From an uncultured Chlorobiales bacterium (lineage in GTDB: Bacteria; Bacteroidota; Chlorobiia; Chlorobiales; Chlorobiaceae): a stretch of 64,000 bases of DNA. Shown here piece after piece: positions 52,025-64,000 of this stretch (position 1 is the first letter of the stretch; each line of letters opens with the position of its first letter). A program made the translations under genes and the position numbers. A model generated the notes under the pieces. That model was not told the origin of the DNA and did no database searches. It worked only from the letters and a program-made list of their open reading frames with translations. The stretch is taken from assembly GCA_903929135.1 (NCBI GenBank), contig CAIYTH010000002.1, forward strand, positions 62,001 to 126,000, given 5' to 3'.

Positions 52025-53350
52025 ATGATGAAGCACGATATTCTGAAAATGCAGGACCGCGAGGTCTTCGACTCGATTGCCGGCGAAGTCAGGCGCCAGA
52101 CCGAGACCCTCGAGCTGATCGCTTCGGAAAACTTCACCAGCAGGGCCGTCATGGAAGCCTGCGGCTCGGTGATGACCAACAAGTACGCCGAGGGCTATCC
52201 CGGCAAGCGGTATTACGGCGGCTGCGAGTACGTCGACGTGGCCGAGAACCTCGCCCGCGACCGCGCAAAAAAGCTTTTCGGCTGCGAGTATGTCAACGTC
52301 CAGCCGCATTCGGGCTCCAGCGCCAATATGGCCGTGCTCTTCGCCGTGCTCAAGCCGGGCGACACCATCATGGGCCTCGACCTCTCACACGGAGGCCATC
52401 TCACCCACGGCAGCTCGGTCAACTTCTCCGGACAGATGTTCGACGCCCACTCCTACGGTGTTGACCGCGAAACGGGCATCATCGACATGAACAAGGTCGA
52501 GGAGCTGGCCCTGCAGGTCCGTCCGAAACTGATCATCGCCGGCGCCAGCGCATACTCCCAGGGCTTCGACCTGAAGGCCTTCAGGCAGATCGCCGACAAG
52601 GTCGGCGCGCTCCTCATGGCCGACGTCGCACATCCGGCGGGCCTCATGGCCGCAGGCGTCCTGCCGAACCCCATGGAGCACTGCCACTTCGTGACCACCA
52701 CCACGCACAAGACCCTTCGCGGTCCCCGCGGCGGCATGATCATGATGGGCAAGGACTTCGAGAACCCGATGGGCATCACGCTCAAGACCAAGACCGGATC
52801 ACGCGTGAAGATGATGTCCGAGGTGCTCGACGCCGAGGTCATGCCCGGCATCCAGGGCGGTCCGCTCATGCACATCATCGCCGGCAAGGCGGTCGCCTTC
52901 GGCGAAGCGTTGCAGCCCTCGTTCAAGGTCTACGCCCAGCAGGTCAAGGACAACGCCGCAGCAATGGCAGCCAAATTCATCGAACTGGACTACCACATCG
53001 TCAGCGGCGGCACGAAGAACCACCTCATGCTGCTCGACCTCCGAAACAAGGATGTCAACGGCAAGATCGCCGAGAACCTGCTGCACGATGCAGGCATCAC
53101 GGTGAACAAGAACATGGTGCCGTTCGACGACAAGTCGCCCTTCGTGACCAGCGGTATCCGCGTCGGTACCCCGGCCATGACCACCAGGGGCATGAAGGTC
53201 GCCGAGAGCGAGCAGGTCGCCGTCTTCATCGACCGCGTCATCTCCGCCGCCAACGATGCCAACGTCGCCGATGTCTGCAGGCAGGTCAGGGCAGAGGTCC
53301 GCGAGCTCTGCCTGAGCTTCCCGCTGGACGGTTACGGCCCGCTCATCTGA
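52025..53350 (+). CDS. glyA: serine hydroxymethyltransferase
   Basis: A PLP enzyme that interconverts serine and glycine with tetrahydrofolate, 441 residues from the ATG at 52025. Key parts are [39 protein letters not shown], and the cofactor lysine in [16 protein letters not shown] near residue 229. The C-terminus [17 protein letters not shown] is family-like. It is followed by a strong terminator shared with the giant-protein operon arriving from the right. A decayed copy of this gene's last third is found at 62.0-62.4 kb. Confidence 0.98.
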
Positions 53351-53372
53351 GGCCATCCGAAATACGTACAGC

Positions 53373-53408
53373 AAAAAGGCCGGTCCCCGAAAGGTGACCG
53401 GCCTTTTT
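53373..53408. terminator. bidirectional terminator between glyA and the giant-protein operon
   Basis: A perfect 13-base stem (AAAAAGGCCGGTC at 53373-53385 with GACCGGCCTTTTT at 53396-53408) and a 10-base loop. It has a T tail in both directions. Confidence 0.92.
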
Positions 53409-53419
53409 CGTTCACACGT

Positions 53420-56400
53420 TCAGGAGTCGGACGGGGGATCGAGCTCCACGACGTCGGAATAGACCATTCGCGGCCATACGGCGGTTTTGCCCACTCCGAC
53501 CACCGCCCTGAGCGAGGTGGCCGAGTTGTTGTCGAGGCCCCGGCCGGGATCGGCGTTCAGGAACTCATACTCCTCGACGACCAGGCGGTAGCGCTGGGCG
53601 TTTCTCACCTGCGGCAGCAGGAGGTAGCCGCTCCAGACCGTGACCGTTTTGGAGACCTGCATCTCGGCAAGCGGTACCCAGGGCTCATCGACGGGCACCC
53701 AGACAGTCGGATCGGTACCCGGCATGCTGACCTCGATACGCACGATGACGCGGTTGGGGCAGACGACGTTGAAGCAGGCCCGCGGCGCCAGGCCGGAGAG
53801 CGAGACCTTCACCCCGAAGGGGTTGGCTGGATCGGGGCTTGTCCACAGGAGCCTGTCGGGCGTTGTCTGGACGCAATCGGCCGTGAAGACGCGGGAGAGC
53901 TCCATGCCTGCGACGGAACACGGCTGGAACCGGGCGAGGGCCAGGCGGACGAACGGGAAGTAGGAGGGGCCCGCGTCGATGGCGATGTCGCTGTACCAGA
54001 GCTTCCTTTCAGCGTCGTAAGCCACCGGATGGCCCGCAGCAGCGACACCCCAGCGCGGTTCACCGGACGGGATGGGCGGATTTTCGTCGAGGAGAAGGTC
54101 GGTGGAACGCGCCACGGCAGCCGGGAAATGGTGTAACGTCGGTGTCTGGTGCACCAGTCCCGAGAGCCATATCGGATCGATGCCCCATCGGGTGACATAA
54201 TTCTGGAGCTTTTCAGGGGGCACCGGCGCGGCAGGGGAAACGAGCGCCTTGCCCTCGCCGGCGTTGTATCCATCGGCCGTGACGATCTGCGGGCCGTGTG
54301 CCACCAGCACGCCGAGCAGTTCCCCTTCGCCTGACGAGAACCACTCTCCGCTCATGTAGACCCTGAGGCATCCGCCTCCCCTGCGGCGGGAAAGGCCATC
54401 CACCCGACGATCCTCCTCCCAGTCGAACGTGGGGATGATATACTCGACCTTCGGGGCGAGCGGGCGCGCCGAGCTGGGCACGTCGAGCACGAAGTCGGCC
54501 GGGCGTTCGAGCGCCTGCGGCGTGGTGAAGCTCATCGCGGGGCTCGAATCGGTCTCGAAGTATTCGCGGAACCTGGATGTGGCCGTTGCCAGGTAGGAGA
54601 TTCGCCGGTGCCTGGTGTCGCCGAGTTCGTGCCGCTCCGACAGGGTGGCGTATTCTGTGTCAAGGTCGGTGACCTCGAACCGGCACGCATCCGCGGAACG
54701 TTGCACGAGGGTAAACCCTTCGTCGGAATCCGGAGCCGGCAACACGTCGTTCCAAGATGCCCTGAAGTCAACCTTGTCGGTGCTCCTGCCGTGGACGTGG
54801 AGGATTCCCGCCAGGGTAAAGAAGGTTTCGGCGGCATTCCGCAGCGGCGAAGGCCCATGCACATACGGGGCGAAAATCGGATGCTGGACCGCATGGATGA
54901 AGGTCAGTTCGCGATAGGGCGTCATCATCCAGTGGCGGCCTTCGACGGCTACCTTCGCGAGCTTGTCAAGCCACGCCGCAGGAGCCGATTCCCGGATCCA
55001 TTGCCAGATGCCCAGCTGGTCGAGCATCCCGGCGCCCGGGAGGCATGAGCTCATAAGCACGGTTATCCGACCGGCCTTCGGCAACCTGACGAGCAGCTTC
55101 CGTTCGGTTTCGAGCCACTCGTACCCGGCATCGCCCTCCTGCAGCTCGACACTGAAGGTGCCCGAATGGGGCCAGGGCCCGGCGCCATCGAATCCGGCGC
55201 GGAAGACGAGCGGGACGTCGGTTCCCGGCAGCCCTACAAACGCAGCGCCACTGGCTGCGGGATCAGGCAGGTAGGGCGCTTCGTCCATCGTTTCGCCGGC
55301 CTTGAGGGTGTCGGGGAGCTGCGCCTTGTCGCGCTTCGCCAGTTCCGTATACCATGACGAAGCTCCGTCCGGTGCAGGGCCGTCGATCATGCCGTGCAGT
55401 TCGGCGAGCTGGACGGTCGCCCGCGGCGCGATGACGACCCGGCTGGTGGTCTCGTCCGTCGGAGTCGTTTCGTTTTCTGCCCAGCTCCGGATGACCAGCC
55501 GGTCGACCGACTCTCCCGGTCGAAGCTCCGTACTGCTCGCCAGGGCCGGCGAAGCAACCGGTTCGAATCGCAGGTAAGGGGCTGGCGAGGTGGCGCCGCT
55601 GTCGTCAATGTCTTCTTTGATGTCGCGGCTGTTGCCGGCGATGTCGACCAGGCGGGCCCGTATCCGGTAATTGCTGCCGTACCGCAGCTTGGGCAGGGAA
55701 CCCCCGGCCACCTTGAAACTGGTGGTCAGGCCGAGGGCATTGGCCACATCGGTCGGTTCGTAGCCGACCGCATCCACCGCACCTGTCGTCGGCTTTTCGA
55801 TGGTCTTCCCGGGGTGAGGCAGCACCATGCTCCAGCCGTCCCAGTGGAAGAGCGCTTCGTGCAGGTAGAGGTCGCTGCCGGCAGCAGGGTCGGTGCTCGA
55901 TACGCCGGCGACGGTGACCGTTCCCTCTTCGGGGTGATCTTTTTCGAAGATGGTGACCGAGGGGTCCGGAGCATAGGTGTAAGTGCCGGTCCGCATGCAG
56001 AGCGAGAACCACTGTTTTTTCGTCTCGTCGTACACGTCGACCCGGTATCCCCGGACGAGGTCCTCGGCGCTGAACCTGATTCCCGGGCTGAATTTGACCT
56101 CGCCACGGAGGTCGAGCGTCGAGAGCTGGCTCTCGTAGCCGCTTCCGTTCTTCAGCTTCTGCACGAACCCGGAGGCGCGGTCGTCCATCAGCACCGACAT
56201 CCCACCGGAGCGAAGCGCGGGCAGTCCGGCGGTCTTCGGCGTGCCGAGCACCGGCGGCTTGTGGATGCCGAGGTCGCCGAGGGTCTGGGTGAAGTTGATC
56301 GCCTTGATGGCCGAGCCGTCGATATCGACCTGGGCCACCGAAAAATCCTTTCCGGACATGTCGAGATGTCCCTTGACGACCAGGCCGCCCGAGGAGTGTG

Positions 56401-57361
56401 CCGAGAAAACCCCTCCCGCAAGGTCGATGTCGTATCCCGTGCCCAGCGCCACTTTAGAATCCGGACCGCCGGAGAGCGGGTTTTCCGGCCACACCCAGAC
56501 GACTTTGTCGGCGACGCCGGCAAGTCCGGGAGGAACCGGTACTTCGAGATCGAAAATCAGCCCGAGCAACCGCTGCAAATCGGGGTAGTCGCCGAGCATG
56601 GCGATGATCTGGTGGAAATCGAGGTCCGGCTTCGCCGGTCGGTTCAGGTAAAACGCTTCGAGCTCGTCGGGGTCCTTGGTCCTGATCTTGGGGGCATGGA
56701 AATACTCGGCCTGCCAGAAGTCCAGGCGGGTCGCTTCCGAATCGCTGATCGATGCAGGATAGTTGCGGGGCACGACCCCGCCTTTGATGAGGGAGTGGAT
56801 CGTTTTTTCACAGCTTGCCCTGGCGCCGAAGTGGCTCAGGTCGAGCGCAGAGAAGTCGGCGATCTTCGCGATGCCCTCCTGGGTGGCAACCATGCTTCCC
56901 CGGCCGTAGAGATTGCCTGGCACCGGGAGTTCCGTCGGCGAGGCGATGGCGACCGCACTATACTGGCGCTTGATGAAATCGAGGATCCTCGAGGCCGGGA
57001 ATGAGCGGACAACCGGGTTGGAGAGATCCTTTACGGTTCGATTCCTCACGACGACCGTCTCCGCTCCCTGGAAAAACTTCTTCCAGAGGTCGGGACGCAG
57101 CAGCTCCTTGGGTGGTTTCAGGTGCGTCACGGTCGGCGTGGCCGTGACGCCCGGAGGATAATTCCCGAAAAGCACGGAGAACGACCAGGGCTTGCCCGCC
57201 CAGTCGACGAAATCGCTGAAGCTGCCGATCGGGGCGCTTCCGCTGTCGGGTGTCAGTCGCGGGGTCGCCCGGACAGAGAGCCTGAGCACCGGGGTGGTAC
57301 CGTCGACGGAAGATTTGCCGATGCCGTTGGGAAGGGCGGTCCAGGTTATGATCTGTTGCAT
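53420..57361 (-). CDS. giant protein of unknown function, downstream gene of a two-gene operon
   Basis: 1,313 residues from the ATG at 57361 (MQQIITWTALPNGIGKSSVD), preceded by GGAG nine bases before. There is no signal peptide or membrane helix, so it is presumably made in the cytoplasm. I recognise no family. It is rich in predicted short strands, Pro, Gly and Trp. Landmarks are GNYPPGVTATPTVTHLKPP early, SNYRIRARLVDIAGNSRDIKED mid-chain (an Ig- or fibronectin-like strand run), LTFIHAVQHPIFAPYV (residues ~830), and repeated Trp/Tyr strands such as VVEYEF-like segments at the end. It ends 12 bases from the terminator shared with glyA. It begins 13 bases after the upstream giant gene ends. 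Confidence 0.85.
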   Translation of the reverse strand: MQQIITWTALPNGIGKSSVDGTTPVLRLSVRATPRLTPDSGSAPIGSFSDFVDWAGKPWSFSVLFGNYPPGVTATPTVTHLKPPKELLRPDLWKKFFQGAETVVVRNRTVKDLSNPVVRSFPASRILDFIKRQYSAVAIASPTELPVPGNLYGRGSMVATQEGIAKIADFSALDLSHFGARASCEKTIHSLIKGGVVPRNYPASISDSEATRLDFWQAEYFHAPKIRTKDPDELEAFYLNRPAKPDLDFHQIIAMLGDYPDLQRLLGLIFDLEVPVPPGLAGVADKVVWVWPENPLSGGPDSKVALGTGYDIDLAGGVFSAHSSGGLVVKGHLDMSGKDFSVAQVDIDGSAIKAINFTQTLGDLGIHKPPVLGTPKTAGLPALRSGGMSVLMDDRASGFVQKLKNGSGYESQLSTLDLRGEVKFSPGIRFSAEDLVRGYRVDVYDETKKQWFSLCMRTGTYTYAPDPSVTIFEKDHPEEGTVTVAGVSSTDPAAGSDLYLHEALFHWDGWSMVLPHPGKTIEKPTTGAVDAVGYEPTDVANALGLTTSFKVAGGSLPKLRYGSNYRIRARLVDIAGNSRDIKEDIDDSGATSPAPYLRFEPVASPALASSTELRPGESVDRLVIRSWAENETTPTDETTSRVVIAPRATVQLAELHGMIDGPAPDGASSWYTELAKRDKAQLPDTLKAGETMDEAPYLPDPAASGAAFVGLPGTDVPLVFRAGFDGAGPWPHSGTFSVELQEGDAGYEWLETERKLLVRLPKAGRITVLMSSCLPGAGMLDQLGIWQWIRESAPAAWLDKLAKVAVEGRHWMMTPYRELTFIHAVQHPIFAPYVHGPSPLRNAAETFFTLAGILHVHGRSTDKVDFRASWNDVLPAPDSDEGFTLVQRSADACRFEVTDLDTEYATLSERHELGDTRHRRISYLATATSRFREYFETDSSPAMSFTTPQALERPADFVLDVPSSARPLAPKVEYIIPTFDWEEDRRVDGLSRRRGGGCLRVYMSGEWFSSGEGELLGVLVAHGPQIVTADGYNAGEGKALVSPAAPVPPEKLQNYVTRWGIDPIWLSGLVHQTPTLHHFPAAVARSTDLLLDENPPIPSGEPRWGVAAAGHPVAYDAERKLWYSDIAIDAGPSYFPFVRLALARFQPCSVAGMELSRVFTADCVQTTPDRLLWTSPDPANPFGVKVSLSGLAPRACFNVVCPNRVIVRIEVSMPGTDPTVWVPVDEPWVPLAEMQVSKTVTVWSGYLLLPQVRNAQRYRLVVEEYEFLNADPGRGLDNNSATSLRAVVGVGKTAVWPRMVYSDVVELDPPSDS

Positions 57362-57374
57362 GGTATGGTTCTCC

Positions 57375-60300
57375 TTATGAGGCAAAGGCTGCTTGGTAGG
57401 TATCCCACTCTTCGAGATTGAAGGCGTCGCCGAGCGTCGGGTCTGACGAGGCGCCCGCGAACTCCCTCCGGACGGTGAGGGTCACGTCGGCGCTGAAGAA
57501 GAGGATTTCGATCTCGACGGTCATGCTCGCCTCGCCCCATGCCTTGTCGTGCTTGAAGTCGTAGGTGAGGCCGAGGTAGAACTCCACGCTCACCGTGATC
57601 AGGCCGAGCACGCAGAGCGATCCGCCGGCACGCACATAACCGGTAAGGTCCGATGCATTGGCGGACATCTTGATGTAGATGCCTGCCATAACGTGGACTC
57701 CGCCGCTTGCCACACCGATGTCGAGAGAGAAATTGCCGCCGAACTCGATCGAGAGTTCGAGCATCTCCACGCCGTCGAGGCCGACGCCGATGGCGAAGAA
57801 ACCGCCGCCGGTGAATAAGGAGACGGAGACCATGAACGGGTTCTGGCGCTCGGAAAGCGCGAAGCGCGCCCTGAAAGGATCGCCGATGAAGGGCAGCGTG
57901 GCCGAAGCGTTCAGCGCGAGGTTCTGCAGGGGCGAAGACGCCTACCTGGATCGACGGGAGCTGGATCCCGTAACCGATCGACAGCCCCTCGGCGGAAATG
58001 TCGATGCTCGGCGGATCGACGAAGCGGTCGAGTCCGAGGTAATCCTCGATGACCGACACGAACGCGAGCGCCCCGACGAATTTTATCTTCCCGATATCGA
58101 CGTTCACCTCGGGCTTGCGGCCCGCTTCCATGCTCATGGAAAACACATTGAAGGGAATCTCGATGACCTTTGCAAGGGTGATGGTGAAATCGACCAGACT
58201 GGCGGTCACGGTTGCGTTGGCGCCCGAAGCGGCGCCGACCGTCACTTCGCAGGTGATTTCTATCCCCCTGCTCGCACCCGATGCGAACGATCCCGCATCA
58301 GCCTTGAGCTGGTCGCTCTTCCAGGTGAAACGTCTTTTCAACTCCCCCTTGTCGGTGACGTCGCTGACCCACTGGGGAATCTTGATGTCGCCGCCGGAAG
58401 CGAACCCGGTAATCTCCTCGAGGATCGAGGCGAGGCTGATTCCGCCGAGTATCTTCGGGGCGTCGCCGCTGAAGAACGCCAGCGGGTTGAAGGTGCCCTT
58501 TCCGAACTCGGCCAGGTCCGTATCGATGCTGCCGTTGTTGCCGCTTCCCACGATGCCGTGGGCGCGAGAGATGCCTCCGGCGAGCATGCTCGGCGTGATC
58601 ATGCCGCCGACCTTGTCGGTCCTGTTGCCTCCGCCGTAGTCGATCGTGACGCCGTCGGTGAACCTGGCGTAGACTTCGCCCTGGCTGTTCGTGCCGCCGA
58701 ACCCGTTGTCGAGGTACCCATTGAAATAGCTGATGCTGCTGGCCTTGTCGGTACCGGCGAACTGCCTCATGGCTGGCGCCACCACGTCCGCAGTGGTCAT
58801 CCTCGGATAAAACGGACGAGCCCATGACTCGCCGCTCTTCTTCAGCCTGAAGAAGCCCACGAAACCGATGGAGCTGGCTTCGAGCGCCTCATCCTTTCCT
58901 CCCTTCGTATCGGCGAAAAAGATACTCTGGCCACCGAACTGGTACTTCCGCCTGCCATCGGGTTTGCCCGGGTCGGCCTGGTCGATGATGACACGATCGA
59001 CGTTCCCGCTGGTGAATGTGATATCGTTGCGCACGAATGCCAGCGGCGCGGAAAACTCGACTACCTTGCCCGCCCTGTCGGTCGCGTTGAGGGAGAACAG
59101 GTAATCCTTATGGTTGACGGTCGGCCAGAATGCCGCCTCGATTTCGGCAGGTGGAATCGGTATCGCTCCGGGATAGGTCTGGTCCAGGAGGGGGGTGACT
59201 TTGGTCAGCACCCGGACGCTCCGGAACGGGATCTCCCGGCCCTGGTGCTCGAAAACGCCGTGTCCGGCCTGGTCAGAAATGTAATCACGCTCGTACTCCT
59301 TGACGACGATGAACGCTCGTTTGCGCAGCCATGCGCCCATGCGCCCGGGCGGGTTCTGGCCGAATTTCCTTTCGGTGATCTCGATGAGCACCGCCTTGTG
59401 CCCGAACGGGTAGAGGTATCCCCGCTTGACCACCTGGACGAACTGGTCGCGCCCCATGGTCGAGCGGTGCAGCCACCGCTCCAGCGTCACCTTCATCTCG
59501 TCGAGCTGCGTCCAGTTGCCGTCGAGGTTCATCCAGGCCCCGAGCGAGGTGAGCATCAGGCGGTTGGCGTCGACCGATTTGAGGGCGCTGTTGGAGACGA
59601 TGAACGCCCTGTCATCCGGTTTCAGCGACTCCGTCCTGGTCAAGTCCGTCTGGACCGGAGGCACGAACGGATCGGGTGAAACCCCCGCAGAGTTGTCGAT
59701 CGACCAGATGGCCCGGACCTGAGGCACATCGGCTGCCGGAGGCGGGCCGGCCAGCCTGGCATGCCAGAGGACTGCCCGTGGTCCCGAAGCCATCACTGTC
59801 GAGACGGCCGTATCCCAGTACCCGTACTGGTCCGGCGAGATCAGCAGGCGGTAAGGCGCCTCGATTGCGGTCGTATCGAGGTCCGGCGCGAAATTGAAGA
59901 CGGCCCCGGTATGCTGGAACGACGGGATGAGCCAGCCATCGGCAAGCCGCGCTTTCTTCAATCCGGCACGGTATGGCTTCACGACCGGCTTCACGGGTTT
60001 GACGGGCATGGGGGTTATGGCGCGGCCGTCGAGGCGCGGCTTCAGAAGGGTGCCCTTCCAGTCGAGCAGCACATCGGCCGCGTAGGGGATGCTCTCCGCT
60101 CCGTCGGGCAGGTCGAAGGCCAGGCGGGAGAGCCCTGCGCTGCGGTAGTTGATGACGCCTGGCGGCACCGAATCCGAGGTTGTCGTCAGGTCTTCGATGA
60201 ACGCCTGCTCCCCGATGCTCTGCGGCGGGAAATAGACCACGATGCGCGGCACGTCGTCCGTCATTCTTGCGAGTTTGCCGGGCCCGGCGCCCCTGAACTC

Positions 60301-61749
60301 GGGTCGCAGTCCCAGGAACTGGAGCCCCAGCACCATCAGGTCACGGGGCCGGACGACCTGCGTGAGGATCCAGTCAGGCAGCACGACATGTGCTTCAGGA
60401 GCATCGCCCGAGACATCGACGACTCCCTCCACGGCCTTGAGCGTGCGACCGACCGGCGCGATGGTGAGGAACATGGTGCTTGCGGCGAGAGGCGGCATGG
60501 GGTCGACCACGAAGTCGCCGAGGCGAGGGGCCGTGGCCAGGAGGGTGAACGGAAGTCCTTGCTGCAGGGGGGTGTTTCCCGAAGGGATCGGACCGAGATA
60601 GAGCAACCCTGGGTTCCCGTCGGCAGGGGGGATGTCGAGCAGCATGAAGCCGGGCTTGCGCGGCACAGGCCCGAGGGCGAGGCTGCATCCGGGCGCGTGC
60701 GCCGTGAGCGGCACAGCGGTCCTCAATGCGACGAGGGTTGCGCCCAGCCGGGTGCCGTCGCCGCGATAGACGGCCAGGTAGACCGGTTTCTGCAGGGGAA
60801 CCGAAAAAGGCAGCATGTAGTCGTTCAGGAGATCCGCTCCCGGCTGGAAAAAGAGTCCCGTCGTCGTGGAACCGACAGCGGTCACTGCGCGCCTGATGCT
60901 GCCGTCGAGCTGCTCGTCGGCTTCGATTGAAAGCCTGAGGAACGCCGGCGCCTGGTGGAAAAATCGCCATCCGGCTGTCTTTTCGGGCCAGAGCGGCACA
61001 TCGAAAGCCTCCTTTTCCGGGATGAAGAGCATCGAGCGGCGGTTGGCCGGATTGGGCAGGAGGCTCGGTATGCCTGGACCGAGCAGTGCCAATGCAAGCA
61101 CCTTCGAGCTGATGGTATCACCCTGCGTGGTGAGGTCGACGAAAGCCTGGCCGCCTCCGAAACTGAAGATCCATGATGGAAAGAATACTGCCCATGTCGC
61201 GCCGGCAAGCCGGAGGTGCATCCCCTCGGTCACGCGGCAGATTTCGTCGTCGAAAAAGACCGGAGCCACCGCCATGGCCTTGCCGTCGAGCCAGTCCGCG
61301 AGATCGACCGCAGCCGCGAATCCGCAGCAGTCGAACTGCAGGTAGAGCTTCGCCTTTCCGCCTGCAATCGTGATCCGCGCGGTGAGGACGGCCGGGATGT
61401 CGAACCCCGGGAAGCGCGCCTCCTTCAGGGTGATCGTCACGTCGTCACCATTCGGGCTGACCTTCACCTCCAGCTTTGAGTTCCCTGCGAATCGGCCGGC
61501 GTTGACACCCCACTGCCCTCCGGCGGCGCTCTTCATGGTTACCCAGCCCGGAGCGTACTCGACGGTAACGCCGCCGATGACAAGCGTCCTGACGAGCGTG
61601 TGCTTGCCTATGGTCCCGATCCTGCCGGCCAGGAACCGCCAGTCAGGTTTGGCCGTGCCGGCTTCCGTGACGAGGGCGCTTCCCGACTGGTCGACCTTGA
61701 GGAAGTCGTTGGACTTCAGAACCGAAAGATTGAAAGGTAAAGGATTCAT
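57375..61749 (-). CDS. giant protein of unknown function, upstream gene, frameshifted near its 3' end
   Basis: About 1,457 residues if one frameshift is corrected. Reading from 61749 (MNPLPFNLSVLKSNDFLKVD) the protein is coherent to IQVGVFA at about 57930. It then turns into Arg-rich noise that runs to 57346. In the other frame the sequence continues sensibly as LQNLALNASATLPFIGDPF and on to TAA at 57375. The switch is one extra G in the run 57929-57932. There is no signal peptide. Near the C-terminus are amphipathic strands such as GFFAIGVGLDGVEMLELSI and SVEFYLGLTYDFKHDKAWG, which alternate as in large beta-sheet proteins. No family is recognised. It could be a pseudogene, a base-call error or recoding. 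Confidence 0.8.
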
Positions 61750-62029: not shown

Positions 62030-62407
62030 GTGAGTAAGGAATAATTCCAGTCGGGGAACATGAATTGTCAATAGCGGTACACTGGTGGATCGACACGTTT
62101 CCCCGGTGATCCGATAAAAGGTAAATCCCCTCATTGAAGACAGCACAACAGGTTTTCGATGAAGCGGGTTCCGCGTTGGTACCCTTGCCATTCCTAGGGG
62201 AATGAAGGTCGTTGTGAGCAAGAAGATCGTCGTCATCATCGTCCGCGTCATCTCTGCAACCAACAATGCAAATGTCTGCAAGCATGGCAAGACACATATC
62301 TGCGAGCTGTGCCTCGGCTTTCCGCTCGACGGCTATGCGCTCGTCTGAGCCACTCGACATACAAAGCAAAAGACCAGCACTCCCAAGGTGACCGGCCTTT
62401 TGCTTTT
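62030..62407 (+). pseudogene. decayed copy of the 3' end of glyA with its terminator
   Basis: From ATG 62202 to TGA 62346 the translation reads MKVVVSKKIVVIIVRVIS, then ATNNANVC, and ends ICELCLGFPLDGYALV. The true glyA end reads [29 protein letters not shown] and [16 protein letters not shown]. The match continues upstream to about 62030 on the nucleotide level with small indels and stops. It continues downstream into a degraded copy of the glyA terminator (AGCAAAAGACC ... GGTGACCGGCCTTTTGC). The copy has the same orientation as glyA, so the giant-protein operon lies between two direct glyA 3' ends. Confidence 0.9.
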
Positions 62408-62485
62408 TCACCTATTCGTTTTTGCCGCCGGCGCCCATAACTCCCAAGCAACACACATCACACCCTCATTGCTTACCTCATTTGC

Positions 62486-63807: not shown

Positions 63808-64000
63808 ATGAGTAATAAGATAGATTTTATTTTGAGTATATATGATGCAGCAAAAAAAGTATCTGCTCAAACCGGAATGTCGGTTGATTTAATTCTTGCA
63901 CAGGCTGCGCAAGAAACGGGTTGGGGAGAAAAAGTGTTGCCCGGCACAAACAATTTATTCAATATAAATGCAGACGCTTCTTGGGCCGGACAGGTTAAGT
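63808..64000 (+). CDS. peptidoglycan hydrolase, GH73/FlgJ-like glucosaminidase (5' part)
   Basis: Cut by the window end after 64 codons. GGAGGTG at 63797-63803 precedes the ATG. The segment VDLILAQAAQETGWGEKVLPGTNNLFNI is the GH73 (mannosyl-glycoprotein endo-beta-N-acetylglucosaminidase) signature, with the probable catalytic Glu in QETGWG and the N-N-L-F-N-I block after it. There is no signal peptide at the N-terminus (MSNKIDFILSIYDAAKKVSA), which is unusual for a housekeeping autolysin and common for injected effectors or phage lysins. It follows the small secreted-type gene by 13 bases. Confidence 0.85.
   Translation, partial: MSNKIDFILSIYDAAKKVSAQTGMSVDLILAQAAQETGWGEKVLPGTNNLFNINADASWAGQVK

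Follow-up and report, generated by a model that had tools for sequence, protein, structure and literature searches.

A co-inherited pair of giant, β-rich bacterial proteins with Tat signals on one partner in part of the family

Two giant proteins encoded side by side raise the question of what they build and where they act. Their genes, here called A and B, lie on the minus strand of the window, the whole 64,000-nucleotide stretch of DNA that was analysed. The original prediction, made from the letters of the window, described them as an undescribed, strand-rich pair with no recognisable family and no signal peptide, and took their size to suggest a large assembly, such as a particle, a filament, or an injected complex.

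The pair is indeed undescribed and unnamed, and it is missing from every family library searched. Neither protein of the window matched Pfam, PHROGs, or NCBIfam, and no Pfam family is shared by 32 diverse relatives of each. Scattered weak family matches in relatives consist mostly of coiled-coil noise in A, together with a transthyretin-like addition in one A N terminus. The Pfam families listed for the 32 A members include no AsmA, TamB, or DUF748-type profile, and the 32 B members have no Pfam match to an A2M domain or thioester profile; no toxin family common to the members was matched. A sequence search of the PDB found no solved relative; with A it returned coiled-coil noise alone, and with B, odorant-binding matches that are due to chance. 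PADLOC matches were likewise coiled-coil noise, the one exception being a weak HEC-01B stretch at the N terminus of window A (E 8e-4, one member). There is no homology between A and B. A metalloenzyme built on conserved His residues of A was considered and dropped, as two of the positions (LWH and W-x-H) are missing in one or other of the distant plasmid-borne relatives A' described below; A has no conserved catalytic cluster, with the candidate histidines not all retained in A'. A literature search by accession and keyword found no description of the pair. That a pair so large and conserved, spread over many phyla, has no entry in any family library searched points to an unnamed biological function.

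Reading frames and insertion site of the operon

Gene B has an intact frame of 1,313 residues that runs on the minus strand from the ATG at 57361 to the stop at 53420. Its AAGGAG ribosome-binding site (57371–57376, minus strand) overlaps the stop codon of A, located at 57375, 13 bases ahead of the start of B; the coordinates thus bear out the predicted layout of two neighbouring minus-strand genes separated by 13 bases. The predicted lengths, about 1,457 and 1,313 residues, are correct for B, but A is not one continuous frame, and a break near 57,930 had been overlooked. The N-terminal part of A (57930–61749, minus strand, about 1,270 residues), delineated by ORF calls and relatives, occupies the first frame and contains the conserved core, which begins at about residue 465. 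The conserved C-terminal part (57375–57930, minus strand; GGGFFAIGVG...VASGG...MAGIY...), aligned with 17 relatives, lies in a different frame, which is open over 57375–57833 and upstream. The span of A from 61749 to 57375 measures 4,375 nt, which is not divisible by three, and the 1,467-residue frame given by the ORF caller ends out of frame. In a profile search, the A C terminus matches the window as two pieces that meet at about 57,929–57,931 (minus strand), where the frame changes in the present assembly. Since A is uninterrupted at this position in G008, G027, and almost all other relatives, the copy in the window carries either a recent lesion or an assembly or sequencing indel. Intact relatives were used in place of the interrupted copy for the analyses of A. 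Rhizobium ruizarguesonis TP23 likewise has a split A (L011 13361–17684), and in Agrobacterium vitis CG957 the plasmid-borne relative of B, B', is split (L144 13350–18888), so broken copies recur.

Both genes of the window are under strong purifying selection, with dN/dS of 0.10–0.24 against two relatives. The expected richness in Pro, Gly, and Trp is found in B, which contains 2.3% Trp, 8.4% Pro, and 8.2% Gly. A search for promoter and terminator signals gave nothing above chance.

On one flank of the insert lies an intact glyA gene for serine hydroxymethyltransferase (52025–53350, plus strand), and on the other the 3' end of glyA recurs with its terminator in decayed form (62163–62411, plus strand), about 77% identical to the intact copy of the same segment at 53186–53417. 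The operon thus sits between true and decayed glyA 3' ends, as had been proposed, and its accessory nature is supported. In the related genome G007, EF-hand/RTX-like sequence resembling that to the right of the decayed copy directly follows glyA. This, together with the duplicated glyA 3' end and terminator around the operon, suggests that the operon was inserted at the glyA 3' end. No integrase was seen, and in G008 and G027 the operon is located elsewhere than at glyA. The region to the right of the operon encodes an RTX/EF-hand-like protein as well as a glucosaminidase that contains an EF-hand-like repeat (window 63809–64000; L023 15809–19318). A gene for the FMO antenna protein elsewhere in the source genome (PF02327, E 3e-222) identifies the organism as a green sulfur bacterium.

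Occurrence of the pair across phyla and on plasmids

A single-sequence scan of genome contigs with B found nothing, and homologues across bacterial genomes were recovered with a profile of the A C terminus at 146 places, 80 of which were fetched. These 80 belong to Pseudomonadota, Bacteroidota, Chlorobiota, Actinomycetota, Bacillota, Armatimonadota, Acidobacteriota, Nitrospirota, Chloroflexota, Krumholzibacteriota, and others. Occurrence is sporadic, with homologues present in 3 of 21 genomes of the genus and 12 of 296 of the phylum. The pairing itself is obligate: every one of the 98 loci examined has A immediately ahead of B, with both on one strand, and the two proteins are not scattered singly. 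Neither observation that would have counted against the original prediction, a match of both proteins to a known family or homologues occurring on their own, was made. In keeping with the suggestion that two co-encoded large proteins form a large assembly, the two very probably belong to one assembly.

Pairwise distances of A and B are correlated with r of 0.97, the largest value among 999 permutations being 0.32, while the tree of B (FastTree, 53 rows) mixes phyla, placing Oscillospiraceae within alphaproteobacteria, Caballeronia with Nitrospira, and Symbiobacteriaceae with Kapaibacterium. Judged by these sequence comparisons, the pair moves between phyla as one co-inherited mobile unit. In Nitrospira and Caballeronia, two related genes encoding about 200 and 640 residues lie divergently upstream of the pair (L113 4249–6833; L100 4392–6908) and are possible extra subunits.

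Plasmid records contain B in ten cases and A-like sequence in fifteen. Distant, still larger relatives are carried by plasmids of Sinorhizobium, Agrobacterium, Rhizobium, and Ruegeria (L143–L148), five of the six being of conjugative type. In these, A' comprises 2,277–3,311 residues and is directly followed by B' of 1,560–1,899 residues, with similarity to the A profile at E 1e-102 to 1e-138 and to B at E 1e-21 to 1e-60; the sixth locus, L147, is arranged differently. Among the genes neighbouring them are DpdE/DpdF in L144 and, in L145, one for a Zn-dependent phospholipase C. A still more distant A-like protein of 2,115 residues is found at a contig end of G246 (L150 3–6347).

No homologue was found in phage records or in 2.9 million viral contigs. 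Two large, β-rich, structural-looking proteins might be expected of a virus-like or phage-tail-derived particle, but the pair has no PHROGs match and no tail, sheath, or baseplate neighbours, and a search of a viral fold library returned nothing coherent. Such a particle is largely refuted already and retains only a marginal probability. The proposed particle, filament, or injected complex is not supported: the surroundings contain no tail, tube, or sheath genes, viral relatives were not found, and the fold matches are only generic.

Tat signals and predicted folds

The predicted lack of a signal peptide holds for Chlorobiaceae but fails for the family, in which the chief hint at function comes from Tat signals on A. 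Under a strict test that demands an N-terminal twin arginine (S/T-R-R-x-F/L-L) followed by an uncharged hydrophobic stretch, the signal is present on A in 16 of 98 loci, or 15 of 74 sequence clusters. The same test picks out 17 of 967 neighbouring ORFs, 2 of the 980 windows taken from inside A, and no B protein (0 of 98). Inspection by eye gives about 24 signals on A in total, about eight of them beyond the strict set, and in three loci (L087, L088, L104) the signal seen by eye is accompanied by a lipobox-like Cys. Among the plasmid relatives, all five full-length A' proteins start with a Tat signal. The sequence of B is what a hitchhiking partner would present, being always adjacent to A and never signalled. 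In three distant loci, the pair is accompanied by a gene that Pfam assigns to TatA (PF02416, E 2e-9 to 6e-20), located 13 nt after B in a member of Symbiobacteriaceae (L109), 50 nt after B' in S. meliloti LMB1 (L143), where it is annotated as tatA, and about 230 nt upstream of A in an unclassified bacterium (L091); a scan of all loci found no further tatA beside the pair.

A secreted RCC1-repeat protein, an unmatched barrel-like secreted protein, or both are linked to the pair in ten clusters, all ten of which are Tat-positive, with no such linkage outside the Tat-bearing clusters (Fisher p 1e-8, uncorrected for ancestry). The RCC1-repeat protein has a conserved 'PPPNQL..DLWR' N-terminal domain, and its partner, with 620–690 residues and no family match, ends in an aromatic residue. 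Both are encoded upstream or downstream of the pair in L024, L026, L028, L029, L030, L033, and L103, where A is always Tat-signalled.

The signal is absent from A in the window, in G008, and in G027, as it is from every Chlorobiaceae member, and within the main group almost no proteobacterial member has it. While the source genome encodes TatC, window A is not classed as a Tat substrate, as neither it nor its Chlorobiaceae relatives carry the motif. On the tree of B, the Tat state of A switches at least four times. These switches, and the many signal-less members, would fit a pair, enzyme or scaffold, that is confined to the cytoplasm and gained Tat signals secondarily in some lineages. Such a pair would scarcely account for the dedicated tatA in three lineages or for Tat signals on the most divergent relatives, and the lack of a conserved catalytic cluster speaks against an enzyme; we regard this explanation as unlikely.

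The predicted structures, obtained with AlphaFold for single chains, are mostly β for both proteins, in agreement with the anticipated strand-rich character. For A, the model covers a core of 937 residues from the Embleya relative (pLDDT 79), and for B, residues 114–1313 (pLDDT 81). A fold search with these models yielded only generic resemblances to Ig arrays and β-sheets. The model of B looks like a string of Ig/Fn3 or macroglobulin-like domains, with TM-scores of about 0.1 for the best Foldseek matches and no homology implied. In the model of the A core, the last 330 residues form long antiparallel strands, which are amphipathic family-wide, with values of +1.6 to +2.8 for the hydrophobic face and -0.3 to -2.0 for the polar face. 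Porins, ushers, and LptD make up nearly all fold matches of A, none of which exceeds a TM-score of 0.28; a few lipid-handling sheets (such as microsomal triglyceride transfer protein, TamAB, and the TULIP-like P47) are also among them. The modelled sheet was not seen to close, and it could also be a plain soluble β-domain.

Lipid contact is the leading rival emphasis for what the proteins would do after export. If the pair handles lipids or other hydrophobic molecules, the C-terminal sheet of A would be an open groove or taco carrying lipid, B would be a scaffold, and export would lead to one of several sites of action. The amphipathic strands and the few lipid-handling folds among the matches are consistent with such a role, as are single neighbours encoding the phospholipase C mentioned above (L145), a patatin (L011), and a polyketide-cyclase/lipid-transport fold (L024). 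The matches are, however, mostly generic barrels at low TM-scores, the phospholipase neighbours are single cases, and an AsmA/TamB profile match is absent, making lipid handling as the main function rather doubtful. The same strands, a large Ig-array partner, and the sporadic, partly plasmid-borne occurrence would also suit a two-component factor that is secreted and forms pores or acts as an antagonist, with B binding the target and the sheet of A inserting. This is improbable, as no recurrent immunity-like gene lies beside the pair, no toxin family is common to its members, and conservation is strong over the full length, with no evident variable receptor-binding module in B.

A possible exported complex and its comparison with known systems

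On balance, we think it probable that A and B are the subunits of a single giant complex, folded in the cytoplasm, which in the lineages with a Tat signal is exported on the signal of A with B riding along, to serve in the envelope or at the surface. Both subunits would be made from the two-gene operon, A first, and folded together in the cytoplasm. In many lineages, the twin-arginine signal of A would then send the folded complex through the Tat pathway, carrying out the signal-less B as a hitchhiker, and some loci would supply their own TatA. Outside, B may act as a scaffold or binding array of Ig/Fn3-like domains, while the large amphipathic antiparallel sheet at the end of A probably contacts lipid, another hydrophobic partner, or B. 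In Chlorobiaceae, where the pair is kept without a Tat signal, it would remain inside or exit by another route. Against export by Tat stand the signal-less A proteins of the window, its Chlorobiaceae relatives, and almost every proteobacterial member of the main group, as well as size. At an assumed 110 Da per residue, A and B together would amount to about 300 kDa, and A' and B' to about 520 kDa; a folded complex of 300–500 kDa would exceed the usual Tat cargo, and we know of no Tat passenger complexes of the size of A and B.

A more far-reaching version, in which the pair is a horizontally mobile two-subunit envelope machine exported folded by Tat as a cargo of 300–500 kDa, with dedicated TatA in some lineages widening or specialising the translocase, is tentative, and we stop short of calling it probable. 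If export by Tat is correct, the pair would give access to naturally occurring giant cargoes that bring along a TatA of their own, making the Tat size limit and cargo-specific TatA directly testable.

Comparison with known systems reveals partial likenesses. Unlike phage tails and extracellular contractile injection systems, the A/B loci have no sheath, tube, or baseplate neighbours and no viral homologues. The predicted chain of β-sandwich domains in B is reminiscent of alpha-2-macroglobulin/complement proteins and of Fn3-Ig arrays, which gave its best Foldseek matches; B differs from alpha-2-macroglobulin by a TM-score of only about 0.1, by the lack of a thioester or A2M profile, and by being part of a bacterial two-gene unit. 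The C terminus of A shares long antiparallel amphipathic strands with AsmA/TamB, MTP, and other β-groove lipid carriers, as well as with LptD, ushers, and porins, but it has no profile match to them, its TM-scores do not exceed 0.28, and A is either Tat-signalled or unsignalled, whereas outer-membrane barrels use Sec. A further analogy is offered by the Tat hitchhikers. Compared with these, A and B do not belong to a cofactor-enzyme family, are several times larger, have their own tatA in some loci, and show no sequence relation. Export of a signal-less partner together with a signalled subunit is an established Tat mechanism, and in PaoABC, hydrogenase-2, and Tat-exported heterodimers, one subunit carries the signal, its signal-less partner is encoded next to it, and the complex is exported pre-folded (PMC4273604, PMC10924467), an arrangement that A and B would, by analogy, follow.
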